Assembly (NCBI GenBank): GCA_016650445.1
Contig: JAENVS010000006.1
Location: 62,001 to 126,000 of the forward strand
Length of the DNA: 64,000 nt
Source of the DNA: Frankiaceae bacterium
GTDB taxonomy: Bacteria > Actinomycetota > Actinomycetes > Mycobacteriales > SCTD01
Reading direction: 5' to 3'
Shown here: in pieces, positions 21,803 to 37,863 of the stretch
Numbering within the stretch: the stretch's first letter is position 1
How the letters are laid out: every line of letters begins with the position of its first letter
Made by a program: the position numbers and the translations under genes
The notes under the pieces: model-generated
What the model was told of the DNA's origin: nothing
The model's input: only the letters and a program-made list of their open reading frames with translations
Database searches by the model: none

Positions 21803-21838
21803 GTGCTGAAGGGTACGGCGGTGTGCCAGGCTGAGCGG

Positions 21839-23047
21839 GTGCTTGGGCCCGGGGCGGCGCGGCGGCTGGCCACCGGTCTGGGTCGCATCGGGGCAGCCGT
21901 CCTCTGGCTGCCGACGTCGTACCTGCTTGCCGTGTCCGTGGCGGGGCTGCTGCCGCCGCGGAAAGCGTCCCCCACGAGCGCGCAATGGGCGGGTCGCCTG
22001 ACCGTGCTGGTGCCCGCGCACGACGAGGAACGGGGCCTGGCCGCGACGTTGCACTCGCTGGCCCGGTGCACCGCGCCGCCCGACGGGTTGCACGTGATCG
22101 TCGTCGCGGACAACTGCTCGGACACCACGGCCGAGGTAGCGCGCCGCTGTGGCGTCGAGGTGTGGGAGCGCACCTCCCCCCTGAGGGGCAAGGGCTACGC
22201 GCTGAGGTGGGCGATGGACCGCCTGCTCGCGGAGGCAGAGTCCCCGTCAGCTGTCGCGATCGTCGATGCCGACACCGTCGTGGACGCGGACTTCCTGCTG
22301 GTCGCCGCCAACCGGCTCGCGCAGGGCGCGCGCGCTGTGCAGGGCGTGTACCGCGCGGCCCGTCCTCACGAGGCCGCGCTGCTCACCCGGCTCACCGACG
22401 CAGCCGCCGCCTGTCAGTCCGTGCTCCGGCCACGTGGCCGCGCCCGGCTCGGTGGCGCGGCGAAGCTGCAGGGCAATGGCATGGTCTTCGCCACCGATGT
22501 CCTGCGCGCGGTGCCGTGGGACGCCTACGGGGTGGCGGAGGACGTCGGCTACTGGATTCGCCTCTTGCGGGCGGGCATCCACCCGGTGCATGAGCCCCGC
22601 TGTGGTGTCGAGAGCGCGATGCCGACGGACGTGACCGCTGCGCGCGTGCAACGTGCCCGCTGGGAGACCGGTCGCGTTGAGGTGGTGCGGGAGCACCGGT
22701 GGCCGGCGCTGCGGCAGGCGTGGGTGCAGCACGATCCCGTGCTGGCCGAGGCGGTCGTCTCGGAGCTCGTGTTCCCACCCTTGGCGCCGATGGCCGGTGC
22801 CGTCGCGGCGGCGGCGCTGCTGACCGCCGTCGGCACGGCCGCCGACCGCCGCGCCGGTCTGCGCACCGGCGCGGCGCAGGGCGCCGTGCTCGTCGGCCAC
22901 GCGCTGGCCGGCCTCCGGGTCACCCAGGCGCCACCGCAGACCTACCTCGCGCTGGCTGCGGCGCCGGGCGTCGTCGCGTGGAAGATCTGGACGAAGCTGG
23001 CCCAGCGCGGCCGTCCCGGCGACTGGCAGCGCACTCCCCGCCCCTGA
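21839..23047 (+). CDS. GT2 family membrane glycosyltransferase, processive type
   Basis: Uses a nucleotide sugar at the inner membrane face. 402 residues. One N-terminal helix precedes the GT2 core: LTVLVPAHDEERGL, IVDADTVVDADFL (DxD), GVAEDVGYW (ED catalytic acid) and a QRARW motif (Q..RW) typical of processive beta-glycosyltransferases. C-terminal hydrophobic segments follow near 300-370. It could build a linear chain (glucan, GlcNAc polymer or mannan), but donor and product are unknown. GTG at 21839 begins just before the first helix; the Shine-Dalgarno is weak. Confidence 0.88.
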   Translation: MLGPGAARRLATGLGRIGAAVLWLPTSYLLAVSVAGLLPPRKASPTSAQWAGRLTVLVPAHDEERGLAATLHSLARCTAPPDGLHVIVVADNCSDTTAEVARRCGVEVWERTSPLRGKGYALRWAMDRLLAEAESPSAVAIVDADTVVDADFLLVAANRLAQGARAVQGVYRAARPHEAALLTRLTDAAAACQSVLRPRGRARLGGAAKLQGNGMVFATDVLRAVPWDAYGVAEDVGYWIRLLRAGIHPVHEPRCGVESAMPTDVTAARVQRARWETGRVEVVREHRWPALRQAWVQHDPVLAEAVVSELVFPPLAPMAGAVAAAALLTAVGTAADRRAGLRTGAAQGAVLVGHALAGLRVTQAPPQTYLALAAAPGVVAWKIWTKLAQRGRPGDWQRTPRP

Positions 23048-23050
23048 CCC

Positions 23051-24088
23051 TCAGGAGGCGTCTGCGGCGACCCGCGCCAGGACACGCCGCGTCTGCTCGA
23101 CCATGACAGCCGGGGTGAACTGCCTGGACCTGGCGCGCCCTGCTTCACCCAGCGCATGCCGGCGCGCGGGGTCGGCCAGCAGGTCCCGCAGGGCGGCTGC
23201 CAGCCGGTCGGCGTCCTCCAGCGGGACAAGGACCCCGCTGTCCGCGACGAGGTCGGCCAGGCCGCCCACTGCGCTGGCGACGACAGGGACGCCCGCCTGC
23301 ATCGCCTCCAGGGCGACCAGGCCGAAGGCCTCGAACCGGGAGGGCATGGCGAGGATGTCGAAGGCGCCGACGAGCTCCGCGGCGTCCGGGCGTCCTCCTG
23401 GCAGCTCGAGGCGGGTGCCCGCAAGCTCGCCCCGCTGCGGGCCGTCCCCGATCACGACGACCCGTACCCCGGGCAGCTGCTCTGCGGCAGCAGCGAGCAC
23501 GTCCCAGCCCTTCTGCGGGTCCAGCCGCCCGATGCCACCGACGACCACCGCGTCTTCCGGCAGGCCGAGCACGACCCGCGGCGTCGGGTGCGGGATCGCT
23601 GTGGGCAGGCCGTTGGGGATGACGACGGCGCGGCCGCCGAGCCGCTCGACGTACCGTCCGACGGGCGCGGACACGCACAGGACCGCCGCCGGGCGACGGA
23701 GCAGGCACGCCGAGACCCGCTCCCGCGCTGCGGCGCGGGCGGGCAGCACGTTGTGGAGCGTCGCCACGGCCCGGCGCCGGGGCGCTGCCAGCACCGACGC
23801 GATCCCATCACCCTGGTCGGTGAGGTTGAGGTGCACCACGTCCGGCTGGAACAGGGTCAGCGCCCGCCGGACCCGCGGCACGGCCGCCGCTCCGGGCAGG
23901 CGCCGCAGGCCCGGGATCCGGGTGATCTCCGCATGTCGGCCCAGGCGCTCGGCCAGGGACGCGTCACCCTCGTCGGGCAGCAGCGCCAGAAGCCGATCCC
24001 CCTGATCACGCAGACCCTCCGCCAACACCTCGAGGTACCGCTCCGCGCCGGCAAACTCGACCGCATCGGCGACGAGAGCAACCTTCAC
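23051..24088 (-). CDS. GT4 family glycosyltransferase
   Basis: Retaining GT-B transferase, cytoplasmic. 345 residues. The N-domain starts KVALVADAVEFAGAERYLE. The C-domain has GGIGRLDPQKGWDVL, VVVIGDGPQRGEL and the nucleotide-sugar motif SRFEAFGLVALEAMQAGVPVV. The GTG overlaps the stop of the upstream GT2 gene (GTGA). Convergent with the plus-strand GT2, 3 bp apart. Confidence 0.93.
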   Translation of the reverse strand: MKVALVADAVEFAGAERYLEVLAEGLRDQGDRLLALLPDEGDASLAERLGRHAEITRIPGLRRLPGAAAVPRVRRALTLFQPDVVHLNLTDQGDGIASVLAAPRRRAVATLHNVLPARAAARERVSACLLRRPAAVLCVSAPVGRYVERLGGRAVVIPNGLPTAIPHPTPRVVLGLPEDAVVVGGIGRLDPQKGWDVLAAAAEQLPGVRVVVIGDGPQRGELAGTRLELPGGRPDAAELVGAFDILAMPSRFEAFGLVALEAMQAGVPVVASAVGGLADLVADSGVLVPLEDADRLAAALRDLLADPARRHALGEAGRARSRQFTPAVMVEQTRRVLARVAADAS

Positions 24089-25224
24089 GCGGCGCCGCCG
24101 CGGTCCACCTTCGGCCAACGCGCCAGTGGCTCGCGGCGCAGGTGTCGCCACAGCCCGCCGAGCCCGACGGCCTGGAGGAAGGCGGCGGAACCCAGGGCGC
24201 CGACCGGCCCCGGCAGCCCCTGGCCGCGGCTGGTCAGCACGTGGGCCGCGCCGGCCACGACGTGCGCCATCGCAAACGAGGCGCTGATCGGGGCTGACCG
24301 GGGTCCCCGTCGCAGCCGGACGAGTGCGAACCCGAGCAGCGTGGCCTGGGCGACGGGCGCGGCGCTCGCCCGCAGCACCCGGTGGCCCCACAGCTGGGCG
24401 CTGACCAGGTCCGCACGCAGCAGGAGCGCCTGCCGTCGCCGGACGACGTCGAGCATGCCGGCCACGATCCGCGTTCGGCGCTCCCAGTCCTCCTGCCAGG
24501 TGCCGCTGGCGTCCTCCACCGCAACCGCGGCCGGCTCGTAGACGACGCGCAGGCCCTGTTCGAGGACGTCGAGCGCCACCCAGAGGTCGTCCACAGCCAC
24601 GTCGGCCGGCACCGGTCGCCAGGCCGTACGCCGGATGGCGGCCAGCTCCCCGACCAGGCCGATCGTGCCGCCCAGCCGGGACTCGCGCGTCTTGAGCCAG
24701 GACTCGAAGCGCCAGTACGCCGACTCCGCACCGGCACTGAGCTGCTTCTCGCCGGCCACAGCTCCCACTGCCGGGTCGCAGAACCAGGCAGCGAGCGCCG
24801 CGAGGGATCCCGGCATGAGGCGGGTGTTGGCGTCGCTGAGCACGACGATCTCGCCGTCTGCGGCGGTGACGCCGATGTCGAGCGCTGCCGACTTGCCGAC
24901 CCGGCGACCTGGGCTGACGACGACGGCTGCCGTCTCCCGGGCCGCTGCCGCGGTCGGCTCGTCGTCCGCGACGACCACCACCTGCAGCCGACCCGGATAG
25001 CCGTTCGCGTGAGCATCGGCGACCTTCGCGGCGATGAGCCGCGCCTCGTGGTAGGCGGCCACGACAACCGTCATGTTCGGCCAGTCGGGCGGGTCGGGCG
25101 GCCGCTGCTCGATCGGCCGGCGGCGCGCGGCGAAGGCGAGACCGGCCGGGTAGAGGACCGGTCCGGCCAGGACGACAGCGCTCAAGCCCGTCACCGCGAT
25201 GCGGCGGGCTGCAACCAGAGCCAC
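24085..25224 (-). CDS. GT2 family membrane glycosyltransferase
   Basis: About 379 residues. One N-terminal helix, then MTVVVAAYHEARLIAAKVAD, VLSDANTRLMPGSL (DxN in place of DxD) and AVDDLWVALDVLEQGL (catalytic acid), then WERRTRIVAG, where the usual Q..RW is relaxed to RR.R, and C-terminal hydrophobic segments. It is probably a polysaccharide-chain transferase similar to the plus-strand GT2 but diverged. The start is uncertain: GTG at 25224 has G-rich sequence upstream, and GTG at 25272 is an alternative. Coupled by overlap to the GT4 gene. Confidence 0.85.
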   Translation of the reverse strand: MALVAARRIAVTGLSAVVLAGPVLYPAGLAFAARRRPIEQRPPDPPDWPNMTVVVAAYHEARLIAAKVADAHANGYPGRLQVVVVADDEPTAAAARETAAVVVSPGRRVGKSAALDIGVTAADGEIVVLSDANTRLMPGSLAALAAWFCDPAVGAVAGEKQLSAGAESAYWRFESWLKTRESRLGGTIGLVGELAAIRRTAWRPVPADVAVDDLWVALDVLEQGLRVVYEPAAVAVEDASGTWQEDWERRTRIVAGMLDVVRRRQALLLRADLVSAQLWGHRVLRASAAPVAQATLLGFALVRLRRGPRSAPISASFAMAHVVAGAAHVLTSRGQGLPGPVGALGSAAFLQAVGLGGLWRHLRREPLARWPKVDRGGAA

Positions 25225-25345
25225 GCCACCCCCAGCCCCGGCGATCCGGCGGCGGGTCCGCCGTGCCTCCACAGCATGCCGTGTCGCCGCGCAGCCGGAC
25301 CTGAAAGCCGAGTTGGCACGAGCTGCTGCGGACACGCTCCGTGGG

Positions 25346-25774
25346 ATGCTGCTCGGCGTGCCGCACCGCGTCGGGATCGACCTCATCGCCGTGGAGGACG
25401 TCGCGGCCGCGTTGAGCGCACACGGCGAGCGCTACCTGGCCCGGGTCTACACCGACCGCGAGGTGCAGGACTGCGCCGGCCCGGCCGGGCCGGATCCGCT
25501 CCGGCTCGCCGCCCGCTTCGCGGCCAAGGAGGCGACGATGAAGGTGCTGCGACCGGGCGACGCAGCCGTGCCCTGGCCGAGCGTCGAGGTCCGCAGGAAC
25601 CCCGGTGGCGACGTCGAGCTCGCGCTGACCGGTGCCGCCAAGGCACTGGCGGAGGATGCCGGTCTGTCGGGATTTGCGGTGAGCCTCACCCATGACGGGG
25701 CGTACGCCGCTGCCGTCGTCGTGGCAGACCATGCGCCGACGGCACTGCAGAACCAGCGCTGCCATGTCGACTGA
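25346..25774 (+). CDS. AcpS-type 4'-phosphopantetheinyl transferase
   Basis: Converts an apo carrier protein to the holo form using coenzyme A. 142 residues. The family signatures are visible: VGIDLIAVEDV near the N-terminus (metal-binding Asp in GIDL) and RFAAKEATMKVL (catalytic/metal Glu in KEA), with SLTHDGAYAAAVVV at the end. It overlaps the next gene, which codes for a carrier protein, so that protein is its probable dedicated substrate. ATG at 25346 or GTG at 25358 could be the start; neither has a strong Shine-Dalgarno. First gene of a nine-gene run with no intergenic bases. Confidence 0.85.
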   Translation: MLLGVPHRVGIDLIAVEDVAAALSAHGERYLARVYTDREVQDCAGPAGPDPLRLAARFAAKEATMKVLRPGDAAVPWPSVEVRRNPGGDVELALTGAAKALAEDAGLSGFAVSLTHDGAYAAAVVVADHAPTALQNQRCHVD

Positions 25775-26030
25775 ACCGAGCATGAACGATCTCATCCGAA
25801 CGGTGCTTCGCGACCACGGCCGACTTCCCGTCCCTATGGAGACCCTTGCCGACAGCGACGACCTCTACCGTGCCGGAATGGCCTCGCATGCGAGCGTCAA
25901 CGTCATGCTCGGGCTCGAGGACGCCTTCGATGTCGAGTTCCCCGACCGGATGCTGACGCGAGGCGTCTTCGCGAGCGTCGATGCCATCGCGGCTGCGCTG
26001 ACCGAGCTCGGCCTGGGCGCCCCGGCGTGA
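25764..26030 (+). CDS. carrier protein of the amino acid:[carrier protein] ligase type
   Basis: 88-residue acidic helical protein that would carry an acyl or aminoacyl group on phosphopantetheine. The attachment serine is S41 in GMASHASVNVMLGLEDAF; the usual DSL is replaced by ASH, which is normal in carrier proteins paired with the aminoacyl ligases downstream. The segment DVEFPDRMLTRGVFASVDAI also fits that subfamily. ATG at 25764 overlaps the AcpS-type gene by 11 nt; ATG at 25782 is an alternative. The stop overlaps the next start (GTGA). Confidence 0.88.
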   Translation: MSTEPSMNDLIRTVLRDHGRLPVPMETLADSDDLYRAGMASHASVNVMLGLEDAFDVEFPDRMLTRGVFASVDAIAAALTELGLGAPA

Positions 26031-27190
26031 CGGCCACCGCTGACGACCTCCTCGCCGGAGTGGCGCGGGCCGCGCAGATCGCGGCGACGCACGCCGACGA
26101 CGTCGACCGCCAGGCGAGGTTCCCCCGCGAGGCGATGGACGAGCTCGCGGGCTGTGGTGCGCTGGCCGCGCTCGTACCCGTGGAGCTCGGAGGTCTCGAG
26201 CTCGGTCTCGACGTGCTCGCGCAGTCCTGCGTGCTGCTCGGCCGGGCGTGCGGCGCGACGGCGATGGTCTTCGCGATGCACACCATCCAGGTGGCCTGCC
26301 TCGTTCGTCACCGCAAGGACTCCGCCTGGTTCGAGGCCTACCTGCGCGAGCTGGTCGCGACGCCCCGGTTGATCGCGTCTGCGACCTCGGAGGTGGCCAC
26401 CGGCGGCAACCTCGGGGCCTCCTCGGCAGCACTCGAGCCGCAGCCCGACGGACAACTGCGGTTCGACAAGAAGGCACCCACGATCAGCTACGGCGCCGAG
26501 GCCGACGACCTGCTCACCACTCTTCGTCGTAGCCCCGACGCCGAGCCGGGCGACCAGGTGGCCGTCTTGACCAGGCGAGGGCAGCACGAGCTGACCGAGA
26601 CCGGTCGCTGGGATCCGCTGGGCATGCGGGGCACCTGCTCGCCCGGCTTCGCCGTGACGGCGACCGTCGGTCCGGCGCAGGTCCTACCCGAGCCGTTCGA
26701 CCGGATCTCCGCCATCACGATGGTGCCGGTGTCGCACGTGCTGTGGTCACACGTCTGGCTCGGCATCGCCACCGATGCGTTCGAACGCGCGCGGGCCTTC
26801 ACGCGTGCGGGCGCTCAACGCGATCCCGCTGGTGGCGACGCCAACGGTCGTCGGCTCTCGACGCTGCTCGGCGAGCTCTCTCTGCTGCGGGCGGCCGTGG
26901 CCGCCGGCCTTGCGGAGCTGACGACGGCGACGGCTGACGACGACTTCGCAGGGCTGATGACGATGGCTGCGGCCCTGCGTTTCAACACCCTCAAGACCAC
27001 TGCCTCGACGTCTGCGCCGCAGGTGTGCTGGTCGGCGCTGGCGATGTGCGGCATCTCTGGCTACCGCAACGACACGCCGTACAGCGTCGGTCGGCATCTG
27101 CGCGATGCACTGTCGGGGTCGGTCATGGTCGCCAACGACCGGCTGCACGCGACCAACGCGCGGCTCCTGCTCGTCGTGAAGGACGTCTGA
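26027..27190 (+). CDS. acyl-CoA dehydrogenase family protein
   Basis: FAD-dependent dehydrogenase/oxidase fold, cytoplasmic, 387 residues. Typical N-terminal helices (PREAMDELAGCGALAALVPVELGG), a middle domain with ASATSEVATGGNLG, TGRWDPLGMRGTCS in the family's WDxxGMR position, and a C-terminal helical bundle (LGIATDAFERARAF; SGYRNDTPYSVGRHLRDALSGSVM). In this cluster type it is thought to act on a group bound to the carrier protein rather than on CoA. That is inferred from context; no product is known. It starts on a GTG overlapping the carrier protein stop. Confidence 0.88.
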   Translation: MTATADDLLAGVARAAQIAATHADDVDRQARFPREAMDELAGCGALAALVPVELGGLELGLDVLAQSCVLLGRACGATAMVFAMHTIQVACLVRHRKDSAWFEAYLRELVATPRLIASATSEVATGGNLGASSAALEPQPDGQLRFDKKAPTISYGAEADDLLTTLRRSPDAEPGDQVAVLTRRGQHELTETGRWDPLGMRGTCSPGFAVTATVGPAQVLPEPFDRISAITMVPVSHVLWSHVWLGIATDAFERARAFTRAGAQRDPAGGDANGRRLSTLLGELSLLRAAVAAGLAELTTATADDDFAGLMTMAAALRFNTLKTTASTSAPQVCWSALAMCGISGYRNDTPYSVGRHLRDALSGSVMVANDRLHATNARLLLVVKDV

Positions 27191-28107
27191 TGGCCGGGAC
27201 CACGGACCAGGAGGCATTCCGCACGCAGCTGATCGACACCGGAGTGCTGCTGGACACCGGCGTGCGCGGCGTCTTCGGACAGGGCGCAGCGCTGCTCGAG
27301 ATCGCCGCCGCGGTCGACGCGCTCGTGACCCGGAAGGCGGCGGACGAGCGAGCCCTTCGCGTGAGCTTCCCCCCGGTGATGCCCCGCCGCGTCCTCGAGG
27401 ACAACGGCTACCTGGGCAGCTGCCCGCAGCTGGCGGCGACGGTGTTCAGCTTCGAGGGTGACGAGGACGCCGCGACCGACCAGGCCGCCGTGGCGGCCGG
27501 CCACGGCGACTGGAGCGGCCATCAGCGCGCGACCGACGTCGTTATGGTGCCGGCCGCCTGTCACCCGGTCTACCCGGCAGTGGCGGCACTCGGGCCGGTG
27601 CCGGACGGCGGGCAGACCGTCGACGCCGGCGCCGCCTGGGTGTTCCGGCGCGAACCCTCGAACGACCCGGCGAGGATGCAGGCCTTCCACCAGCGCGAGG
27701 TGGTGCGCATCGGCACCCCGGACGACGTCGCCGCCTGGCGCGACGGCTGGCGCGACCGCGCCGCGGGGATGCTTGCCGGCCTCGGGCTGGACACCGCCGT
27801 CGATGAGGCCAACGACCCGTTCTTCGGCCGGGCCGGTCGACTGCTCGCCCGCAGCCAGCGCGCGCAGAAGCTGAAGTTCGAGATCACGGTGCCCATCGCC
27901 AGCCCGGAACCGACAGCCGTAGCGTCCTTCAACGCCCACGGTGACCACTTCGCCACAGCGTTCGGCCTGAAGCATGCCGACGGGACGGTCGCGCACACAG
28001 CCTGCCTCGGCTTCGGGTTGGAGCGCATCTCCCTTGCGCTGCTGCGTGCGCACGGCTTCGACCGCGAGGCCTGGCCGGAGCCGGTCCGCGCCGACCTGTG
28101 GCCGTGA
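27190..28107 (+). CDS. amino acid:[carrier protein] ligase (class II seryl-tRNA-synthetase-like)
   Basis: Activates an amino acid with ATP and loads it on the phosphopantetheine of a carrier protein; it lacks the tRNA-binding domain of true synthetases. 305 residues, the family's size. Class II motif 2 is FRRE at about 152-155 and motif 3 is GFGLERISLALL at 275-286. C124 (AACHPVYP), E170 (HQREVVRIG) and C272 (TACLGFG) match the zinc-ligand pattern of the characterised Bradyrhizobium enzymes, which prefer glycine or alanine. The amino acid used here cannot be read from sequence. The ATG overlaps the previous stop (TGATG). Confidence 0.92.
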   Translation: MAGTTDQEAFRTQLIDTGVLLDTGVRGVFGQGAALLEIAAAVDALVTRKAADERALRVSFPPVMPRRVLEDNGYLGSCPQLAATVFSFEGDEDAATDQAAVAAGHGDWSGHQRATDVVMVPAACHPVYPAVAALGPVPDGGQTVDAGAAWVFRREPSNDPARMQAFHQREVVRIGTPDDVAAWRDGWRDRAAGMLAGLGLDTAVDEANDPFFGRAGRLLARSQRAQKLKFEITVPIASPEPTAVASFNAHGDHFATAFGLKHADGTVAHTACLGFGLERISLALLRAHGFDREAWPEPVRADLWP

Positions 28108-29072
28108 CGAACGCGCGCATCCGCCTGGCCGGCTTCGACCTGCCGTCCATCCTCGAGCGACCGGGGCACGCGCTGCACGGGAGCGACCGGCTCTATCCCG
28201 AGACCAACTGCTACGCCGACCTCGTCGTCGAGCTGCTTCATGCCCGCGGTGACGAGCCGCTCGCGGTGCTGGGCTGCTGCGCTGCGCTGGACTTCGAGGG
28301 CGACCAGTTCACCTTCTTCAAGCCACCGCCGGAGGAGCTGCAGGCGCTGTTCGGGATCGACGTGCACGAGATGCAGCCCTACCGAGCGCTGGAGCAGCAG
28401 CTTCGCGAGCTGCTTCCGACCGGGCGCACCGTCACGGTCGAGGTCGACAGCTGGTACCTGCCGGACACCGCGGCGACGGACTACCGGACCAACCACGTGA
28501 AGTCGTCCATCGCACCGCTGGCCCTCGACCCCGACGACCAGGTGCTCCACTACGTCCACGGCCGGGGCGTGTTCACGCTGACCGGCGAGGACTACCGCGG
28601 GGCGCTCAGACTGGAACCGCTGCCGGCCGTCGCGTTGCCGCCGTACACCGAGCTGGTGCGCTTCGACGCCGGCCCGCGGCTTGGCGGCACCGAGCTCCAG
28701 GCGGCCGCCCGTGAGCTGCTCGCCGGGCACCTCAGGCGGGCGCCGGGCGCCGCGGCCGTACACCGGTTCGGCGAGCACCTCGACGCCTCGCTTCCTGACC
28801 TGCTGGCCGGAACGGAAGCCGACTTCCACGCGTACGCCTTCGCGAGCGTGCGCATGCTCGGTGCCGCGGCCGGGGCGCTCGAGCTGCAGGCACGCTGGCT
28901 CTTCCCGTCAGCCGCCGCCGCGATCGCGGCGTGCGACGCCGTCACCGGCAGCTGCAAGGTGCTGTCGTTCCGGCTTGCGCGCCGGCGGCCCTTCGACCCG
29001 GCGCCGATCGTGGTCGAGCTGGCCGTGCAGTGGCAGGCCGTGTTGGAGCAGCTCGATGCCCTCGTCGCCTAG
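28104..29072 (+). CDS. DUF1839 family protein
   Basis: 322-residue soluble protein, a regular companion of amino acid:[carrier protein] ligases. Its conserved segments include YPETNCYADLVVELL, GDQFTFFKPPPEELQALFGIDV, VEVDSWYLPDT, TNHVKSSIAPLALD and YVHGRGVFTLTGEDY. The Cys and His in NCYAD and TNHVKS could be catalytic, suggesting transfer of the aminoacyl group, but the function has not been established. GTG at 28104 overlaps the ligase stop; a GTG two codons earlier is possible. Confidence 0.9.
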   Translation: MTNARIRLAGFDLPSILERPGHALHGSDRLYPETNCYADLVVELLHARGDEPLAVLGCCAALDFEGDQFTFFKPPPEELQALFGIDVHEMQPYRALEQQLRELLPTGRTVTVEVDSWYLPDTAATDYRTNHVKSSIAPLALDPDDQVLHYVHGRGVFTLTGEDYRGALRLEPLPAVALPPYTELVRFDAGPRLGGTELQAAARELLAGHLRRAPGAAAVHRFGEHLDASLPDLLAGTEADFHAYAFASVRMLGAAAGALELQARWLFPSAAAAIAACDAVTGSCKVLSFRLARRRPFDPAPIVVELAVQWQAVLEQLDALVA

Positions 29073-31566
29073 GGCGGCGGCAGTCCCGGGCACGAGGGGG
29101 CGCCTGGTCACCGTGGCCGGCTCCAGCCGGCTGCCGCTGTCCACCGGCTGGCAGTTGCGTCGAAGCGGTGACGACGCGACCGACGATGACTGGCTGGCCG
29201 CGCAGGTGCCGGGGACGGTCGCCTCTGCGCACCGTGCCAGCGGGCGCGCTGTGCCGGCCGACCTCGATGACGTCGGCTGGCTCTTTCGGACGGCGGTCGA
29301 CGCCCCGGCGGCAGACACCGGCGAGCAGCTCGTCCTGCGGTTTGACGGCGTTGCCACGCTGGCAGACATCGTCCTCGACGGGACGGTGATCGCCGAGGTC
29401 CGCAGCATGCACACGCCGGTGGCCGTCGACGTCACGGACCTGCTTCGCGAGGGGTCTTCCCTCGAGGTGCGCTGCGCCGCGTTGGGCCCGGTCCTCGCGA
29501 CGCCACGACGCCCTCGGGCCCGATGGCGTGCCGCGCTTGCGCCGAACGGGCTGCGCTGGATCCGTACGGCGATCATCGGTCGCGCTCCCGGCCTGGCCGC
29601 CGGTCCGCCGCTGATCGGCCCGTGGCGGTCGGTGTCACTGGAGCGGCGCCGGCGGGTGGCCGTTGACGACCTGCAGGTGACGACGCGCGTCGTGGACGGC
29701 GTCGGCGTGACGCGGCTCCACCTGCGAGTGGCTCCCCTGGACGGAGCCGTCATCCAGGGCGTTCGCGGGCGGGTCTCGCAGGGCGACCGCGCTGTCGAGC
29801 AGTCCTTCGAGCGGCATGGCGGAGGCTGGGCGGGTGAGGTCGCTCTCCCGAGCCCCGAGCTGTGGTGGCCCCACACGCATGGATCGCCCTCACTTGCAGC
29901 GCTGACCCTCACCGTCGAGACGAGCCTCGGCCCCGTCGCGGTCGACGCCGGCCGGGTCGGCTTCCGAACGATCGAGACCCCCGAGCTCGAGCGGGAGGGC
30001 CTGGCGCTCAAGGTCAACGGGGTGCCGGTCTTCGTGCGGGGCGCGGTCTGGGTGCCACCGGAGCTCGGCACCGGCGGCCGGGATGACGTGCCGTCGATGC
30101 TGTCCGCGGTGGCCGCCGGGGGCATGAACCTGCTGCGTGTCGCGGGCACCGGCTGCTACGAGACGGCCGACTTCTGGGCCGGCTGCGACGAGCGCGGGAT
30201 CCTCGTCTGGCAGGACCTGATGTTCGCCAACTTCGACTACCCGGCCGAGGATGAGACGTTCGCGGAGCAGGTTGTCGACGAGGTCGCCACCGTGCTGTCT
30301 GGTGCCGCCGGCTCGCCCAGTCTCGCCGTCGTCTGCGGCGGCAGCGAAGTGGAGCAGCAGGTCGCGATGCTCGGCCTCGATCCGGCGCTCGGCCGTGGCC
30401 CGTTGTTCAGGGAGCTGCTCCCCGACCTGGTACGCCGCAGTGGAGTCGATGCCGCCTACGTGCCGTCCAGCCCGACCGGCGGCGAGCTGCCGATGCGGCC
30501 GTCCGAGGGCATCGCGCACTGGTTCGGCGTCGGCGGCTACCGGCGACCGCTCGCCGACACACGGGGGGCGCAGGTGCGGTTCGCGGCCGAGTGCCTGGCC
30601 CTGTCCAACGTCCCGGGCGAGGCCGGCGTCTGCGCCGTCGGCGGCTACGGCACACCGGCGTGGGTCGAAGGGGTACCGGCCGATGCGCACACCGACTGGA
30701 CCTTCGAGGACGTGCGCGACCACTACACGGAGCTGCTCTACGGGATCGACGTGGCCGTCCTGCGGCGACAGGAAGTCGACCGCTATCTCGCGGTGTCGCG
30801 GCTGACGTCGAGCGAGCTGCTCGCCGAGGTCTTCGGGGAGTGGCGCCGCGACGCATCCCCCTGCGGAGGCGGGATCATCCTGTGGCTTCGCGACCTGCGC
30901 CCCGGAGCTGGGTGGGGGCTGCTCGACGCGGCAGGGGACCCGAAGCCGATCTGGTGGGCAGCCCGCCGCGCCTTCGCACCCGTGGCCGCGTGGACCACCG
31001 ACGAAGGCCTCGGCGGCGTCGATGTGCACGTGGCGAACGATCAACGCGAGGGGCTGCAGGGCGAGCTCAGGATCGCGGCGTACCACAACGACGTCCTGGT
31101 GCGCGACGGCCGGCTGGCGATCGACCTTCTCGCGCACAGCGCCCACACGGTCTCGGCCGAAGCGGTGCTCGGCGGGTTCATCGACGCGTCGTACGCCTAC
31201 CGGTTCGGACCCCCCGGTCACGACCTGCTCGTCGCCTCGCTACTGGTTGACGGCGTTCTGGTTTCCGAGACGTTCCGGTTCCCTGTCGGTGCACCGGTGG
31301 CTGTGCTGACCCCTGACGAGCTCGGACTGGTCGCGGTGGCCGAGCCCCGACCCGATGGCGGCTTCGTGCTCACCTGCACGACGGCGCGAACGGCGCTCGG
31401 CGTCGACATTGACGCACCCGGCTTCCGGTGCGACGACGACTACTTCCACCTCGCCCCCGGTTCGTCGCGTCGGCTCGAGCTGCAGCCGACGACGCCCGGC
31501 GCACCGCTGTCGGCGACCCTGGGAGCTGTGAACCTTGGCCGCCGGGTGCACGTGACCGAGCGATGA
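29056..31566 (+). CDS. GH2-like glycoside hydrolase (beta-mannosidase type)
   Basis: 836 residues without a signal peptide, so probably cytoplasmic. The N-terminal sugar-binding domain (SRLPLSTGWQLRR; DDVGWLFRTAVD) is followed by immunoglobulin-like domains and a TIM barrel with NLLRVAGTGCYETADFWAGCDERGILVWQDLMFANFDYP. E431 in VCGGSE matches the acid/base position (usually GNNE), and E512 in RFAAE matches the nucleophile. Activity is therefore plausible, though the region around E431 is altered. ATG at 29056 has GGAG seven nt upstream and overlaps DUF1839 by 17 nt. Its place in an assembly operon suggests editing of lipid-linked sugars or transglycosylation. Confidence 0.85.
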   Translation: MPSSPRAAAVPGTRGRLVTVAGSSRLPLSTGWQLRRSGDDATDDDWLAAQVPGTVASAHRASGRAVPADLDDVGWLFRTAVDAPAADTGEQLVLRFDGVATLADIVLDGTVIAEVRSMHTPVAVDVTDLLREGSSLEVRCAALGPVLATPRRPRARWRAALAPNGLRWIRTAIIGRAPGLAAGPPLIGPWRSVSLERRRRVAVDDLQVTTRVVDGVGVTRLHLRVAPLDGAVIQGVRGRVSQGDRAVEQSFERHGGGWAGEVALPSPELWWPHTHGSPSLAALTLTVETSLGPVAVDAGRVGFRTIETPELEREGLALKVNGVPVFVRGAVWVPPELGTGGRDDVPSMLSAVAAGGMNLLRVAGTGCYETADFWAGCDERGILVWQDLMFANFDYPAEDETFAEQVVDEVATVLSGAAGSPSLAVVCGGSEVEQQVAMLGLDPALGRGPLFRELLPDLVRRSGVDAAYVPSSPTGGELPMRPSEGIAHWFGVGGYRRPLADTRGAQVRFAAECLALSNVPGEAGVCAVGGYGTPAWVEGVPADAHTDWTFEDVRDHYTELLYGIDVAVLRRQEVDRYLAVSRLTSSELLAEVFGEWRRDASPCGGGIILWLRDLRPGAGWGLLDAAGDPKPIWWAARRAFAPVAAWTTDEGLGGVDVHVANDQREGLQGELRIAAYHNDVLVRDGRLAIDLLAHSAHTVSAEAVLGGFIDASYAYRFGPPGHDLLVASLLVDGVLVSETFRFPVGAPVAVLTPDELGLVAVAEPRPDGGFVLTCTTARTALGVDIDAPGFRCDDDYFHLAPGSSRRLELQPTTPGAPLSATLGAVNLGRRVHVTER

Positions 31567-33269
31567 CAGGCACGCCGACGTACCTCGACCTCGGGGGCGA
31601 GGACGTGTACGCCGTCGTGCACCTGCCCGACGGTCAGTCGTCCTCCACCGGCGTGCTGCAGCTCTCGCCGTACGGCTGGGACGACCTGACGTCGTACCGG
31701 AGCAGGCGGGCATGGGCACTGCGCTTGGAAGCGGCGGGGCATCCCGTGCTGCGGTTCGACTGGCCGGGCACCGGCGACAGCCCCGGGGATCCAGGCGACA
31801 CAGATCGCTTGGCAGCGTGGCGGCGGGCGACCGTGGCGGCGGCGCGCCTCCTACGAGACGACCTTGGCTGCAGCCGGGTCGCTGCCGTCGGGATCGGCAT
31901 CGGCGGCCTGATCGCGTCGTTGGAGGGGGCCGAGCTCGATGACCTCGTGCTGTGGGGGACCTCCGCTCGGGGCGCAGCATCCGTGCGTGAGCTGCGCGCG
32001 ACCGCCGCCCTGCATGGCATCGATGGGCAACCGGTCGTCGACGACGACGGTGTGCTCTGGGTGAACGGCCATCCGCTCCCGCCCGGCCTGGCCGCGGAGC
32101 TGTCGACGGTCGAGCTCGCCTCGATCGCCACTCCGACCGGAGGCCGCGCGCTGCTGCTCGGCAGGGACGGCCGTCCCCCAGATGCCAGACTCGAGGCAGC
32201 CCTCCGCAGCGGCGACCGCGCCGTGGAGACCGCCGACGGGGTGGGCTGGAGCGACCTGCTGGCCGACCCTCAGTTCTCGCGTTCACCGACCACGACCGCC
32301 GACCTGGTCGCGTCGTGGCTGGCAGCCGGGGCGACCGGTCAGCGGGCGCAGCGGGACGTCATCGTGCCCGGCCGGACGCACGTGGATCTCGGGTCCGGGA
32401 TCCACGAGTCAGTGCTGACGCTGGCCGTCCCGGGTGGGCCACTGTCCGCGATCCGGACCGACCCGGTGAACGAACCGGCCGGCCTGTTCGTGGTCCTGCT
32501 CAACGGGGGCGCGCTGCGACGGATCGGGCCGAACCGGATGTACGTCGACGCCGCCCGTCGGTGGGCAGCGGCCGGCATCGGCACCGTGCGCGTCGACCTG
32601 CCGGGCACGGGTGACAGCGCCGGGCCGGACCACTGGCTCCCTGGCGACGAGGTCTTCTACACAGCTGAGATGGAAGCGGCGATGACGGCCACGCTCGACG
32701 CACTGGCAGCGCAGCAGCCGGGCTCGCCGCTGGTCGCGGCCGGGCTCTGCTCGGGGGCCTACTGGTCGTTCGTCGCGGCAGCCCAGCACGAGCGCGTGAC
32801 GGGCGCGGTGCTGCTCAACCCGCGCGTCCTCGTGTGGTCGCCCCGGCAACGGGCGGATGAGTCGAGCCGTGAGCTGAGCAAGCTTCGTTCCGCCGAGACC
32901 TGGCGCAACGTGCTCCGGGGGGGATCCTCCTTCGGGAAGGCCGCCCGCGTTGCGGCCGCCGCCGCCCGGCGGGCCGGCGGACGGCTGACCGACCGGCTGC
33001 GCCGCCGACCGGCTGCCGGCGAGCTCGGCGTCGCCGCGGACCGACTGTCGAGCGCTGGCGCCGAGGTGCTGCTGGTGCTCACCCCGGGCGAACCGCTGCG
33101 GGCTCGGCTCGGCACTGATCCCGGCCTCGCTGCGCTGCTGGTCACGCCAGGTGTCGGGCGGCTGTTGCCCGACGGCCCGACAGACGCGCACACGATGGCG
33201 CCCCCGGACCTGCGTCGCGGTGTCGAACGCGCCGTGGACGAGTGGCTTCTCGCGCGACGTCCCCGATGA
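31563..33269 (+). CDS. tandem alpha/beta hydrolase protein
   Basis: 568 residues made of two alpha/beta-hydrolase lobes (about 1-255 and 265-568). Each has the GTGDS oxyanion-side motif (RFDWPGTGDSPG near 70; RVDLPGTGDSAG near 350). The first nucleophile elbow reads AVGIGIGG, with Gly112 in place of the nucleophile. The second reads AAGLCSG, with Cys396 in that position. So the first lobe looks inactive and the second looks like a thiol hydrolase or acyltransferase. It may hydrolyse or transfer the carrier-bound acyl/aminoacyl group onto a sugar (inference). Overlaps both neighbours by ATGA. Confidence 0.8.
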   Translation: MTGTPTYLDLGGEDVYAVVHLPDGQSSSTGVLQLSPYGWDDLTSYRSRRAWALRLEAAGHPVLRFDWPGTGDSPGDPGDTDRLAAWRRATVAAARLLRDDLGCSRVAAVGIGIGGLIASLEGAELDDLVLWGTSARGAASVRELRATAALHGIDGQPVVDDDGVLWVNGHPLPPGLAAELSTVELASIATPTGGRALLLGRDGRPPDARLEAALRSGDRAVETADGVGWSDLLADPQFSRSPTTTADLVASWLAAGATGQRAQRDVIVPGRTHVDLGSGIHESVLTLAVPGGPLSAIRTDPVNEPAGLFVVLLNGGALRRIGPNRMYVDAARRWAAAGIGTVRVDLPGTGDSAGPDHWLPGDEVFYTAEMEAAMTATLDALAAQQPGSPLVAAGLCSGAYWSFVAAAQHERVTGAVLLNPRVLVWSPRQRADESSRELSKLRSAETWRNVLRGGSSFGKAARVAAAAARRAGGRLTDRLRRRPAAGELGVAADRLSSAGAEVLLVLTPGEPLRARLGTDPGLAALLVTPGVGRLLPDGPTDAHTMAPPDLRRGVERAVDEWLLARRPR

Positions 33270-34789
33270 GCGTTCTGCCCGCAGGCTTTCGTCGCAGCGC
33301 GCTGAGCAACTACCTCGCCACGGCCTCGAGCCTGGTGCTTGCCCTCGTGACGGTGCCGCTGCTCACCTCCGGCCTCGGCCGCACCGGCTACGGCGTCTGG
33401 GTACTCGTCGGCTCCCTCATCATGTACCTCGAGATCTTCGAGTTCGGATTCGGCACCACGACGATCCGCTACGTCGCCGACGCCTCCAGCCGCGAGGACG
33501 AACAAGGCGTTCGTACGGCGATCGCCACGTCCTTCTGGCTCCTCGTCGTACCCGGCATCATCGCGCTTCTCGTCGGGCTCGCCGTCGCCTGGGCGTTCCC
33601 GGCGCTGTTCTCCCTGCACGGCGACACGGCTTCGGCCGCCCGGCTGCTCGTCGTCCTGCTCGCGGTCGACCTGGCGATCTCCATCCCGGGCGACACCTTC
33701 GGCGGCGTGCTCATCGCGATGCAGCGCTTCGACCTGCTCAACGCGACGCTCATCAGCGTGCTGCTGGCTCAGACCGCGGCCATCGCCGTCGTCCTCGCGC
33801 TCGGCGGCGGGCTGGTGGCCCTGGGCGCGGCGACGACCGTCATCAGCCTGCTCGGACAGCTGGCCCGGTACCTGTTCGCCCGCCGACTCGTGCCCGGCAT
33901 GTCCCTCCGGCCGAGCCGCGCCCGTCGCGAGCTCGTCCGGCCCTACGCCGTCACGTCGGTCTGGTTCTCCCTCAACGAGGTCTCCGTTCTCGTCGTCCAG
34001 CGCCTCGACGCGGTCGTGGTCGGGGGAGTCGTCGGCGTCGCCGCCGCGGGTGTCTACGCCGTCGGTCAGAAGCTGGCGATGCTCGGCGACCGGCTGATCG
34101 ACCCCGTGGTCGGCGCCTTCTTCCCGCACGCGGCGGCGCAGGCCGCCCGCGGGGAACGCGCGGCGGTCCGGGCCAGCTCACTCGCAGCCTTCCGACTGGC
34201 GACCGCAGTGGCACTCCCGCCCACCCTGCTGACCGCGCTCCTGGCAGGACCGCTGTTGGACCTCTGGGTCGGGCCCCGCTTCGCAGAGGCGGAGGGGGTG
34301 GTGGTCTACCTCGCCGGCGCCGTCGGCATCTCCGCGCTGCGCCGTCCCGCGCAGAACGTGCTGAACGGCGTGGGCAAGCCCCGCGTCGTCGCCCTGATCA
34401 GCGTCGCGGAGGCGGTCACAAACCTGACGCTCAGCATCGCCCTCGGTCGCGCCATCGGCCTGACCGGCGTCGCGGTTGCCACGCTCATCACCACCACCTC
34501 GGCCACGGTGCTGCTCGTCCTGCCGTACTTCTGCCGTGAGGTCGGTATTCCAGCCCGGCGCATCTACGGGGCGGTCGCGTCCGCGCACCTGCTGCCGGCG
34601 GCCGTCGTCAGCGCGCTCGCGCTCGGCCTGCGCTCGGCCGAGCCCGGTGGGTCTCTCGGCGTCCTGCTCGGCGGGATGGGCCTGGGACTGCTGTACTTCG
34701 GACTGCTGACCCGCACCGGGCTGTCGGGCCCGGAACGGGCCGCCTTACGCGCGGCCCTCGGGCGCCGTCGACTCGGACAGTCGTCGTGA
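33266..34789 (+). CDS. polysaccharide flippase (Wzx/MATE-like)
   Basis: Moves lipid-linked repeat units across the membrane. 507 residues and 12-14 hydrophobic segments. The first reads SNYLATASSLVLALVTVPLLTSGLG, with the conserved GYGVWVLVGSLIMYLEIFEFGFG region of the polysaccharide biosynthesis family, and VYAVGQKLAMLGDRL further on. Coupled by overlaps to the hydrolase upstream and the double GT4 downstream, so its cargo is probably the product of this operon. Confidence 0.92.
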   Translation: MSVLPAGFRRSALSNYLATASSLVLALVTVPLLTSGLGRTGYGVWVLVGSLIMYLEIFEFGFGTTTIRYVADASSREDEQGVRTAIATSFWLLVVPGIIALLVGLAVAWAFPALFSLHGDTASAARLLVVLLAVDLAISIPGDTFGGVLIAMQRFDLLNATLISVLLAQTAAIAVVLALGGGLVALGAATTVISLLGQLARYLFARRLVPGMSLRPSRARRELVRPYAVTSVWFSLNEVSVLVVQRLDAVVVGGVVGVAAAGVYAVGQKLAMLGDRLIDPVVGAFFPHAAAQAARGERAAVRASSLAAFRLATAVALPPTLLTALLAGPLLDLWVGPRFAEAEGVVVYLAGAVGISALRRPAQNVLNGVGKPRVVALISVAEAVTNLTLSIALGRAIGLTGVAVATLITTTSATVLLVLPYFCREVGIPARRIYGAVASAHLLPAAVVSALALGLRSAEPGGSLGVLLGGMGLGLLYFGLLTRTGLSGPERAALRAALGRRRLGQSS

Positions 34790-36936
34790 CGGGGTGCCGG
34801 GTCCTGCTGGTGGACCCGTCGGAGCGGGGCGGCATTGCCGTCTACACCGACGCCCTCGCCGCCGCGCTCGCTGCGACCGGCGGCTCGGTCACCCTGCTGA
34901 CCAGCAGCACCCGGCCCGCCGCCGCGGTGCCGACCCTGCGCGCCCTCCCCAGCCAACGCTGGGGACGCGACCCCGAGCAGCCGGCGCTGCTGTTCTACCT
35001 CGGGCGGCTGCGCACTGCCTGGCTGACGCGGCGCGCCGTGCTGCGCGCGATCGCGACGGTCCAGCCTGATGTCGTTCACCTCCAGGCGGAGATCGTGCGC
35101 CGCCTGGATCACCTGCTCGTCGCGGACATCCGTCGCCGAGTTCCGGTCGTGGTCACCGCTCACGATGTCCAGCCGCTGTCTGCGGAGCCACCGAGGCTCG
35201 CGTGGCTACGGGCCGCCGACGCCGTCGTCGTGCACACCGAGCCGGCCCGTCTGCTGCTGGCCGATCACCGCATCCCCTCCGTCGTCGTCGAGCACATCCC
35301 GGCGACGGTGCCGCCGGAGGCCGGCCCTGATGCGCCGCGGTCCGGCGCGCGACACGAGCTCGGGCTGCCCGAAACGGGTCGACTCGTGGCCGCGCTGGGC
35401 TTTGTCCGGCAGTACAAGGGCTATGCCCTCCTCGCCGACGTCTGGGAGCAGCTCGGGCCGCAAGCCCCGCTGCTGCTCGTTCTCGGCGAGGCGTGGGACG
35501 AGGAAGCGAGCCAGGTGCTCGACCGCCTGGAGGCGACCGGCCGCGCGGTCGTTCGCCGCGGTTTCGCCACCGACCGCGAGCTGGCCCTGGCCGCCCGCGC
35601 GGCCGATGCGCTGCTCCTGCCCTACGAGCGGGCCAGCGACAGCGGACTGGTGCACCTGGCTCGGGCGACCGGCACTCCCGTGCTGGCCAGCGATGCTCCG
35701 CAGCTGGCTGCGTCCGTGCGCGCCACGGGTTCCGGTGCCGTGGTCGCCCGGGACGTCACCGCCTGGTCCGCGGCCGTGACCGGCGCGCTACCACCTGCCC
35801 CGGCAGCGCCCCCGGCTGCCGAGCAGATCGCACGCGCGCACCTCACGGTCTACGACCTCGCCCGCAGACGTCGCCTGCTCGCGTGCACCGACGCCACCGA
35901 GTGGGGCGGCGCCGAGGTGGTCCTGTCCCGGGTCGTCGAGCACCTCGCGGCCGACTGGGACGTGACCGTGCTGGGAACAGACCACACGATCACCGCACGA
36001 GTCGCGGCCGGTGCGCCCGAGGCCGCGACCGTGGTCCTCCCGCCGGTGGCCGGCAAGCGGGACCTGATCGGAATCGTGCGCCACGTACGGGCCGTGCGGC
36101 AGGCGGCACCCGACGTCCTGCTGGTCAACCTGCGCATCCCCTGGGCCGGCCAGTACACAACGCTGGCCGGGTTGCTGCTCCGCGTCCCGGTGGTCGCGGT
36201 CGAGCACTTCCCGGACACGACGGAAAGCGGCCTGCAGGTGCGGCTCAAGCGGTGGGCCGTCAGCCGGCTGGCCGCGCACCTTGCCGTCAGCGACGCCGCC
36301 GCGGGTCGCGTCGAGCAGCTCGTCGGCTTGCCGACGGGCAGCGTGCGAACCCTGCGCAACGGCGTCCCGCGACTGGCGGTCACGCCCGGCGAGCTCCCTG
36401 CGGCTCTGCCGCATCCGTGCGTCGTCGCCGCCGGTCGCCTTGATCCGATCAAGGGGTTCGACGTCCTGCTGCAGGCCATGGCACTCGTTCCGGGGGTGTC
36501 GCTGTGGCTCCTGGGGGACGGACCCGAGCGACCGGTCCTGGAGGCGCTCTGCGACCAGCTCGGGCTGCGGGACCGAGTCCGCTTCGCCGGGTGGTACGAC
36601 GACGTCGCCGGAGCCTTCGCCGCGGCCGACCTCGTCGTCCTGCCGAGTCACTACGAAGCCGCGCCCCTCGTCGCGACCGAGGCGCTGCAGGTGGGCACCC
36701 CCCTCGTCGCCACCGCGGTCGGCGGGATTCCCGAGCTCGTCGGCGATGCCGCAGCACTGGTGCCGCCGGACGATCCCCGCCGGCTGGCGGACGCGATCCG
36801 GGACGTGCTCGCCGATCCTGACCGGCAGCGACAGCTGTGTGCGGCGGGACGAGCGCGGGCGGCCGGGTGGCCGACGCCGGCCGACATGGCACGGGACTAC
36901 GACGCGGTTCTGCGCAGCGTGCTACGACGGCACTGA
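34786..36936 (+). CDS. fused double GT4 glycosyltransferase
   Basis: 716 residues made of two complete GT-B/GT4 units. The first (about 1-355) starts RVLLVDPSERGGIAVYTDAL and has GFVRQYKGYALLADV and a degenerate donor site (LPYERASDSGLVHLARATGTPVLAS). The second (about 365-716) starts LLACTDATEWGGAEVVLSRVVEHL and has AGRLDPIKGFDVLL and SHYEAAPLVATEALQVGTPLVA. Both probably add sugars in sequence to the lipid-linked unit, though the EX7E region of the first is weaker. GTG start overlaps the flippase stop. Last gene of the overlapping run. Confidence 0.9.
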   Translation: MTGCRVLLVDPSERGGIAVYTDALAAALAATGGSVTLLTSSTRPAAAVPTLRALPSQRWGRDPEQPALLFYLGRLRTAWLTRRAVLRAIATVQPDVVHLQAEIVRRLDHLLVADIRRRVPVVVTAHDVQPLSAEPPRLAWLRAADAVVVHTEPARLLLADHRIPSVVVEHIPATVPPEAGPDAPRSGARHELGLPETGRLVAALGFVRQYKGYALLADVWEQLGPQAPLLLVLGEAWDEEASQVLDRLEATGRAVVRRGFATDRELALAARAADALLLPYERASDSGLVHLARATGTPVLASDAPQLAASVRATGSGAVVARDVTAWSAAVTGALPPAPAAPPAAEQIARAHLTVYDLARRRRLLACTDATEWGGAEVVLSRVVEHLAADWDVTVLGTDHTITARVAAGAPEAATVVLPPVAGKRDLIGIVRHVRAVRQAAPDVLLVNLRIPWAGQYTTLAGLLLRVPVVAVEHFPDTTESGLQVRLKRWAVSRLAAHLAVSDAAAGRVEQLVGLPTGSVRTLRNGVPRLAVTPGELPAALPHPCVVAAGRLDPIKGFDVLLQAMALVPGVSLWLLGDGPERPVLEALCDQLGLRDRVRFAGWYDDVAGAFAAADLVVLPSHYEAAPLVATEALQVGTPLVATAVGGIPELVGDAAALVPPDDPRRLADAIRDVLADPDRQRQLCAAGRARAAGWPTPADMARDYDAVLRSVLRRH

Positions 36937-36937: not shown

Positions 36938-37714
36938 TCAGCCCGAGAGCGTCCACCAGGCTTCGTACTCCAGGGACTGGGCCAACGTCCAGGTGCCACC
37001 TGGCCCATAGGTGAGCTGCGCAGTCTGCTCGCTGTAGGGCTCGAGCGCAGTCAGCTTGTCGACCAGGTCACTCCCGATCACGGGCCTGACGGTAGGCGTC
37101 AGCCGGTGGACGGGTACACCGGACGTAGCCAGCGCCCCCGACCACTGCATCGCCACCTCGTGGCGTCGCCACCTGAGCACATGCCGGCTCCAGGCGAGTG
37201 GCAGCCGAGGCCGCCCACCGTTGATCACCCATCGAGGCCAGCCGAAGGTGCTTGCGTACGGCAGGTCGGCGTACAGGGTCAATGGTGGCCGATGCGAGGA
37301 ACGCCACACCGCCAGGCCGGCCTTCAGGGCGAGCACGTGATCGGGGTGCCGGCCCAGCGCGACCGGCAGCCACAGCGACTCGGCGCTGCCGACCACGGCG
37401 GCCAGTGCACGCTCGAGATCGGCCAACCGGGTGCGGTCGTCCGCGACGCGGTAGTCGCAGTCGAGCAGATCCAGATGAACAGGCTGGGCGCCGACCCGGG
37501 AGACACTGACCGCGTCGTTGGCGCGCCGGGCAGTGGCCGCGGTCGCGGGGTCCGGATAACCGCAGCGCCTGTCCCAGTCGGCCAGCCGGGCGGCCTTGTC
37601 AGGCACGCCCCCGAAGCACGTGACGACGGTCGCCCCCGGACTGCCACGCAGCATGCAGCCCAGGCTGAGGACCGCGTCGTCGAGGTGCGGCGAGATCACC
37701 GTGAGCGCGACCAA
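36938..37714 (-). CDS. PIG-L family deacetylase
   Basis: Zinc-dependent N-deacetylase of sugars, LmbE-like. 258 residues. The zinc motif is ISPHLDDAVLS near the N-terminus with the third ligand region in ALGRHPDHVLALKAG. I chose a TTG at 37714 because AGGGG lies 7 nt upstream and the reading then starts close to the family N-terminus; GTG at 37699 is the alternative. Convergent with the double GT4 gene, one base apart. It probably deacetylates an amino sugar of the polysaccharide, exposing an amine. Confidence 0.87.
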   Translation of the reverse strand: MVALTVISPHLDDAVLSLGCMLRGSPGATVVTCFGGVPDKAARLADWDRRCGYPDPATAATARRANDAVSVSRVGAQPVHLDLLDCDYRVADDRTRLADLERALAAVVGSAESLWLPVALGRHPDHVLALKAGLAVWRSSHRPPLTLYADLPYASTFGWPRWVINGGRPRLPLAWSRHVLRWRRHEVAMQWSGALATSGVPVHRLTPTVRPVIGSDLVDKLTALEPYSEQTAQLTYGPGGTWTLAQSLEYEAWWTLSG

Positions 37715-37776
37715 CAACGGTCCCCTGTCTGCGGGCGCCTGGGCTCCGCGGAGGTGCCCCCGAGGGAGTGCAGTGG

Positions 37777-37863
37777 CGGTGGCGGTGGGATTTGAACCCA
37801 CGGACGGCTTGCACCGTCACACGCTTTCGAGGCGTGCTCCTTCGGCCGCTCGGACACGCCACC
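37777..37863 (-). tRNA. tRNA-Ser (anticodon CGA)
   Basis: Reads UCG. The acceptor stem is GGTGGCG/CGCCACC with discriminator G, the anticodon loop is CTCGAAA, the long variable arm is GACGGTGCAAGCCGTC, and the T arm is GTGGG-TTCAAAT-CCCAC. CCA is not encoded. Second serine tRNA in the window. Confidence 0.96.

Follow-up and report, generated by a model that had tools for sequence, protein, structure and literature searches.

The window, the whole stretch of 64,000 nucleotides analysed here (G000:C6:62001-126000), belongs to a high-GC genome of 3.4 Mb in 50 contigs. At 25346-36936 on the plus strand it carries a locus built around an amino acid:[carrier protein] ligase, which is a variant of a known, functionally unsolved gene cassette. 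Checking of the open reading frames (ORFs) gave nine, with ATG or GTG starts and with every neighbouring pair overlapping, as had been described in a sequence-only reading of this DNA that reported nine plus-strand genes without an intergenic base. The family names given in that reading for g1 to g9 were likewise recovered by Pfam and NCBIfam profile matches. The genes are:

g1, 25346-25774, plus strand: AcpS-type phosphopantetheinyl transferase (PPTase; PF01648)
g2, 25764-26030, plus strand: carrier protein (ACP) with the phosphopantetheine serine in GMAS (PRK07081)
g3, 26027-27190, plus strand: flavoenzyme of the acyl-CoA dehydrogenase (ACAD) fold, probably a monooxygenase (Acyl-CoA_dh_N, PF02771)
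g4, 27190-28107, plus strand: amino acid:[carrier protein] ligase, resembling class II aminoacyl-tRNA synthetases (PRK07080)
g5, 28098-29072, plus strand: DUF1839 protein, candidate papain-like carrier-dependent N-acyltransferase (PF08893, 286 bits)
g6, 29056-31566, plus strand: GH2 glycosidase-like protein with a GH2_14-type SE motif (GH2 N-domain, PF22666)
g7, 31563-33269, plus strand: tandem alpha/beta-hydrolase with two lobes (PF12146/PF12697)
g8, 33242 or 33266 to 34789, plus strand: MOP-family (Wzx-type) flippase (Polysacc_synt, PF01943, E 8.5e-18)
g9, 34786-36936, plus strand: two fused GT4 glycosyltransferases (PF13439/PF13692, two stretches each)

Six of these genes, encoding the ACP, the ACAD-like enzyme, the ligase, DUF1839, the GH2-like protein and the tandem hydrolase, form a cassette that is also found elsewhere. 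They occur in the same order as in the window on plasmids of Azospirillum lipoferum and Mycetohabitans rhizoxinica, with the hydrolase gene inverted in Phyllobacterium and Rhizobium rhizoryzae and without it in Shinella and Caballeronia, and some Rhizobium plasmids hold the first four cassette genes only. With the same homologous gene order in two phyla, the arrangement is far beyond chance. The sequence-only reading had taken the first five genes of the locus as the known set. The membership of ligase, carrier, ACAD and DUF1839 was correct and the five-gene extent was not: in Azospirillum and Mycetohabitans the shared gene order continues through the GH2-like and tandem hydrolase genes, which brings the conserved set to six. 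Their conservation in proteobacterial plasmid cassettes also means that these two genes belong to the cassette and not to the polysaccharide operon. The only additions to the cassette in the window are the PPTase, the flippase and the double GT4, and the PPTase is outside the set in the Proteobacteria examined.

The genome holds two ACPS-family (PF01648) genes, of which g1 is the second copy and the other lies on contig C15, in agreement with the earlier description of g1 as a dedicated PPTase. Among the 21 strong ligase loci of the order, 15 have a PPTase gene within 10 kb of the ligase, where 0.2 would be expected. The carrier g2 matched PRK07081 with 107.6 bits (cut-off 72), and the phosphopantetheine serine was invariant in 25 of 25 aligned carrier proteins. 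The ligase g4 matched PRK07080 with 383.8 bits, above the curated cut-off of 357, and its homologues in the PDB are the solved amino acid-ACP ligases 4h2w (E 2e-72) and 3mey (E 1e-70). Residues Cys125, Glu156 and Cys273, numbered from 27187, were invariant in all 24 ligases aligned and presumably are the zinc ligands of a metal site. The ligase family is zinc-dependent (PMC9437257). At the sequence level, the second PPTase, the carrier and the ligase together imply formation of an aminoacyl thioester, which supports the same claim in the sequence-only reading.

The strongest evidence on mechanism comes from the predicted fold of DUF1839. In an alignment of DUF1839 proteins, Cys38, His133 and His154 were invariant and position 136 was Ser or Thr in 16 of 16 sequences. 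An AlphaFold2 model built from 12 sequences (mean pLDDT 84, pTM 0.82) consists of a papain-like domain and a C-terminal helical domain, as in CcbD, CtaG and AziU3; Cys38 begins a helix (residues 38-49) next to a low-confidence segment at residues 33-36, and the invariant His133 and His154 are candidate partners. The model gave 19 PDB matches with E < 0.001, every one of them AziU3, CtaG or CcbD and aligned over the full length, and the next match followed at E 0.6. A sequence search for a solved homologue of DUF1839 gave none, with AziU3 appearing only at E about 1. Earlier work assigned the DUF1839 family to the papain-like superfamily, described a C(T/S)H site in which the His is shifted, and guessed an acyl-CoA-dependent role in glycan processing (PMC10318531). 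The reaction of CcbD follows a ping-pong mechanism with a Cys-His-Glu site, in which proline leaves its carrier and is joined to the amino group of a thiooctose, an amino sugar (PMC12945683). The modelled fold thus points to carrier-dependent amide formation as the likely chemistry of DUF1839 and to an amine, probably that of an amino sugar, as the likely acceptor. Kinship with BtrH was also considered; a profile comparison with 14 BtrH_N proteins gave a probability of 15%, and no such relationship is claimed.

For g3, the position of the catalytic Glu of medium-chain (MCAD-type) dehydrogenases is occupied by Val or Ile in 17 of 17 homologues, with an Asn two positions on, and a function as true acyl-CoA dehydrogenase was rejected because this Glu is missing. 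When the g3 model (pLDDT 89) was compared with PDB structures, ranks 1-13 were taken by DszC, TdsC, KijD3 and nitrososynthase and the first dehydrogenase appeared at rank 14, with E-values that differ little from those of the oxygenases. Unlike the fold ranking, the sequence profile scored dehydrogenases slightly above oxygenases. Monooxygenation is favoured but not proven; it was also the role guessed for the ACAD-like enzyme by Iyer et al. (PMC2922099). The sequence-only reading had proposed oxidation by an ACAD-like enzyme, which is right as to family; instead of a dehydrogenase, the missing Glu and the fold matches suggest a monooxygenase-like protein.

The two remaining cassette enzymes have conserved active-site features as well. 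In 14 aligned homologues of g6, both catalytic glutamates (Glu431 and Glu512) are invariant and residue 430, preceding the acid/base Glu, is Ser (Thr once) and never Asn. The closest PDB relatives of g6 are beta-mannosidases. An SE motif, reported to assist in fitting substituted sugars, marks subfamily GH2_14, whose pocket is thought to admit such sugars; the two members assayed are slow beta-galactosidases without signal peptides, with the natural substrate unknown (PMC12243196). With SE replacing NE and the nucleophile Glu retained, g6 carries the GH2_14 motif, and it shares with BmGH2_14 and SdGH2_14 this motif and a beta-mannosidase-like family 2 character, a likeness by motif. Of the two lobes in the tandem hydrolases (14 aligned), the first is without the usual nucleophile; the second has a G-x-C-[SA]-G motif, in g7 G-x-C-S-G, with Cys where the nucleophile is expected and a conserved His after it. 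The lobes of g7 resemble, in this order, hydrolase 2 and hydrolase 1 of exosortase-A (XrtA) polysaccharide loci, and this likeness suggests a step shared with those loci. Assignment of g7 as an exosortase-A hydrolase was rejected, with scores of 97.3 of 168.45 and 61.3 of 202.75 bits that lie below the cut-offs (TIGR03100/TIGR03101). No exosortase was present among the proteins scanned here, and the literature on PEP-CTERM loci held nothing on carrier proteins.

The nine genes lie in a 29.6 kb island between two tRNA-Ser genes with their 3' ends inward (window 8073-37863). Its borders and other main features are:

8073-8159, plus strand: tRNA-Ser(GGA), left border, adjoining dnaX/recR
11233-12987, plus strand: polyprenyl glycosylphosphotransferase, the initiating enzyme (PF02397, 4e-65)
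17852-18877, minus strand: acyltransferase 3 (PF01757)
18960-20495, minus strand: Wzz/BY-kinase-like chain-length protein (PF02706, ParA/CbiA)
20384-22093, minus strand: Wzy-like polymerase/O-antigen ligase (PF04932)
24085-25386, minus strand: GT2 glycosyltransferase, divergent from g1 (PF13641)
36938-37801, minus strand: PIG-L-type N-deacetylase abutting g9 (motifs SPHLDD and HPDH; Pfam score below cut-off)
37774-37863, minus strand: tRNA-Ser(CGA), right border, adjoining tadA

Between 11233 and 36936 all components of a Wzx/Wzy-type system are found, i.e., PF02397, PF01943, PF04932, PF02706 and GT2/GT4 proteins. A further GT2 ORF (21380-23047, plus strand) partly overlaps the Wzy-like ORF. 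The true start of the PIG-L protein probably lies within its ORF, past the tRNA at 37774. Of the solved structures in the PDB, those of Dbv21 and teicoplanin Orf2, both pseudoaglycone N-deacetylases, are closest to it, and judged by sequence the enzyme is a candidate source of the free sugar amine.

In two genomes of the same genus the distance between the same two tRNA genes is 6.9 kb in one and 1.9 kb in the other, and no polysaccharide genes of the island were detected between them, except for a relative of ORF 8229-9719 in one genome. The ligase profile found no match in any of the three same-genus genomes. The segment 8073-37863 is a variable, acquired genomic island. Integration targeted to a tRNA gene was not shown: with up to three mismatches allowed, the sequence of the tRNA 3' end was recovered only in the tRNA itself and not again at the opposite border. 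Beyond tadA, an ORF at 40332-41540 on the minus strand encodes a DUF559/MTES-type nuclease domain together with an AbiEi-antitoxin-like region.

To see how general the linkage with polysaccharide genes is, we turned to related genomes. DUF1839 occurs in 3 of 397 sampled Actinomycetota genomes, and the cassette is therefore rare in the phylum. Within the order, the ligase profile matched 51 of 399 genomes, about 20 of them with strong members; DUF1839 was found in 13 of 40 genomes with ligase-like genes that were searched for it, in every case on the ligase contig. An initiating sugar transferase (PGT) or a flippase lies within 25 kb in 13 of the 21 strong ligase loci. From the count of such genes per genome 1.0 would be expected, and none of 1e6 simulations reached 13; the loci are not independent, and counted by genus the linkage is seen in 5 of 10. 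The ligase tree places the window, its same-family relatives and the proteobacterial cassettes in one group (99/98), apart from the Mycobacteriaceae-like loci, and because these clades are separate, linkage to polysaccharide genes was acquired more than once. In Mycetohabitans, an ArnT-type transferase lies 10 kb from the cassette. The coupling to Wzx and GT4 genes proposed in the sequence-only reading thus stands as an enrichment across the order and fails for the nearest relatives and most proteobacteria, which have stand-alone cassettes. A lack of conserved linkage in relatives, named beforehand as an argument against the proposal, applies to the close relatives and not across the order; conserved Wzx/GT4 linkage was sought within the family of the window and not found.

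A reduced form of the locus was also encountered. On a Tsukamurella plasmid (L039) and in the Mycobacteriaceae-like polysaccharide loci L046, L047, L048, L051, L054 and L055, the ligase, carrier, PPTase and tandem hydrolase genes lie in a polysaccharide locus without ACAD, DUF1839 and GH2. Ligases from full and reduced loci are interleaved in the tree, with at least two changes forced by well-supported branches, and the three absent genes are gained or lost as one block. In the reduced loci something other than these three proteins must act, for which the tandem hydrolase is a candidate.

Several further loci were seen in this survey. Locus L042 (12608-16596) has a full cassette beside genes for a GGDEF-EAL protein and a 709-aa ThiF/nitroreductase-like protein, with no polysaccharide genes seen. 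A weaker group of ligase homologues (G572:C5, G719:C31, G409:C164, G513:C16 and G448:C1) has a PPTase gene directly adjacent in genomes without DUF1839. L053 (G619:C1:1641171-1642094) is the second ligase copy of its genome; it has a reported in-frame TGA and lies beside flippase and GT4 genes.

We propose that the cassette couples an amino acid to an amino sugar as an amide, via a carrier-protein thioester, in this genome probably for an exopolysaccharide, and hold this reading with about even confidence. Phosphopantetheine would be put on carrier g2 by g1, after which g4 would adenylate a small amino acid, glycine or alanine by analogy with characterised homologues, and load it on g2. The carrier-bound aminoacyl group would be oxygenated by g3. 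Cys38 of g5 would take over the acyl group from the carrier and, in a ping-pong reaction like that of CcbD, hand it on to the amino group of an amino sugar. The acceptor would most likely be an amino sugar of the island polymer, which the neighbouring PIG-L deacetylase may unmask; its assignment to an exopolysaccharide follows from the position of the cassette inside a complete Wzx/Wzy-type island. The substrate of the GH2-like protein g6 may be a glycoside in the cytosol whose sugar is substituted at C2, with a role in processing or quality control, and the Cys-nucleophile lobe of g7 may be a thioesterase or a second acyltransferase. The decorated unit, perhaps in lipid-linked form, would be exported by g8. 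We are slightly less inclined to extend the proposal to a general carrier route in which amino acid:[carrier protein] ligase cassettes attach small, oxygenated amino acids to amino sugars, DUF1839 being an amide-forming transferase akin to lincosamide synthetase, and which actinobacteria repeatedly recruited for exopolysaccharides.

A number of observations weigh against the proposed amide-forming route. The match of DUF1839 to AziU3, CtaG and CcbD is moderate, with a TM of about 0.5-0.58 for a predicted fold, and the comparisons made did not establish homology with CcbD or BtrH at the sequence level. DUF1839 cannot be the sole transferase, because the reduced loci do not have it. Neither PIG-L nor DegT proteins are general partners of the cassette in 20 genomes: PIG-L adjoins it only in the window and DegT only in G433, although the G433 locus, with its neighbouring DegT aminotransferase and epimerase genes, in itself speaks for the proposal. 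In L004, which is from the same family and is the nearest relative with long flanks, a PPTase-ACP-ACAD-ligase-DUF1839-GH2 array lies between glnA/glnE and aldo-keto reductase/NAD synthase genes; no polysaccharide genes were seen in the neighbourhood scanned, and the 122 kb contig of L004 carries neither a PGT nor a flippase. Of nine annotated plasmid neighbourhoods from proteobacteria, eight likewise have no flippase and polymerase genes, Shinella being the exception.

Such stand-alone cassettes, located near housekeeping, transporter or plasmid-backbone genes in the same-family actinobacterium and most proteobacteria, would fit a product that is a free small aminoacyl-amino-sugar metabolite, with the placement in a polysaccharide island being incidental. 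A mobile context with transposases and a conjugative plasmid points the same way. We consider this explanation doubtful in view of the order-wide enrichment of PGT and flippase genes in separate clades and the overlap of the cassette genes in the window with those of the flippase and the GT4 protein. A less probable option is that the Cys lobe of g7 is the aminoacyl transferase and that DUF1839, ACAD and GH2 form an optional tailoring block. The presence of the tandem hydrolase in full and reduced loci alike would be explained in this way, as would the all-or-none occurrence of the other three genes on an interleaved ligase tree. However, the full cassettes L038, L042, L043, L044, L058 and L060 have no hydrolase nearby, and it is DUF1839 that is predicted to have the expected transferase fold.

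The substrate of g3 might also be a sugar amine, as for KijD3 and DnmZ, instead of a carrier-bound amino acid. We rate this marginally lower still: these two rank, like related nitrososynthases, with the closest folds, but DszC and TdsC are equally close, and both the ACP-ACAD-ligase order and the fact that the enzyme strictly accompanies the carrier suggest a carrier-bound substrate. Non-ribosomal peptide synthesis, the first proposal made for the ligase in 2010 and reported in PMC2922099, is very improbable. A carrier with an adenylating ligase would suit it, but no condensation or adenylation domains were present among the proteins scanned around the cassette, and the linkage to glycan genes argues against it.

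The idea of the sequence-only reading, transfer of an amino acid from a thioester to a sugar, is not new and was essentially published in 2010, when Iyer et al. suggested ligation of an amino acid to a cell-surface amino sugar with an ORF typified by Atu2574 as the amide ligase (PMC2922099). From its place in the cassette, we take the Atu2574-type ORF to be the DUF1839 gene. The cassette known from rhizobia and their relatives (Bll0957; Atu2574 neighbourhood; Iyer 2010, Mocibob 2010) has the ACP, redox enzyme, ligase, uncharacterised protein and glycosidase in common with the cassette in the window, whereas the latter has its own PPTase and overlaps flippase and double GT4 genes inside a whole polysaccharide island. 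DUF1839 shares its predicted fold with lincosamide synthetase (CcbD/LmbD), a Cys enzyme that couples an amino acid on a carrier with an amino sugar; in contrast, the carrier in the window is charged by a class II aminoacyl-tRNA synthetase homologue, the product is no known antibiotic and no sequence similarity was established. CtaG (closthioamide) and AziU3 (azinomycin) share the predicted fold too, act in natural-product pathways on different substrates and to our knowledge have no glycan context. In Dlt-type D-alanylation, an amino acid on a dedicated carrier is likewise destined for a surface polymer; the ligase fold of the window is different, and no MBOAT (DltB) protein was found among those scanned.

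New in this work are the fold match to CcbD, CtaG and AziU3, the missing dehydrogenase Glu, the GH2_14 link, the two cassette variants, the linkage statistics and the island. The DUF1839 fold and the full and reduced sub-modules make the old question of the cassette's function directly testable in vitro. The general carrier route, if correct, would assign a first function to a ligase family that has been without one since 2010. If the proposal holds, bacteria would also possess a thioester-based decoration of surface sugars with amino acids by enzymes unrelated to those of D-alanylation. Concerning regulation, ligase Bll0957 and ACAD Bll0958 are listed with a fold change of 3.0 in a phaR mutant of Bradyrhizobium diazoefficiens (PMC10888616), a hint that the cassette is regulated with carbon storage.

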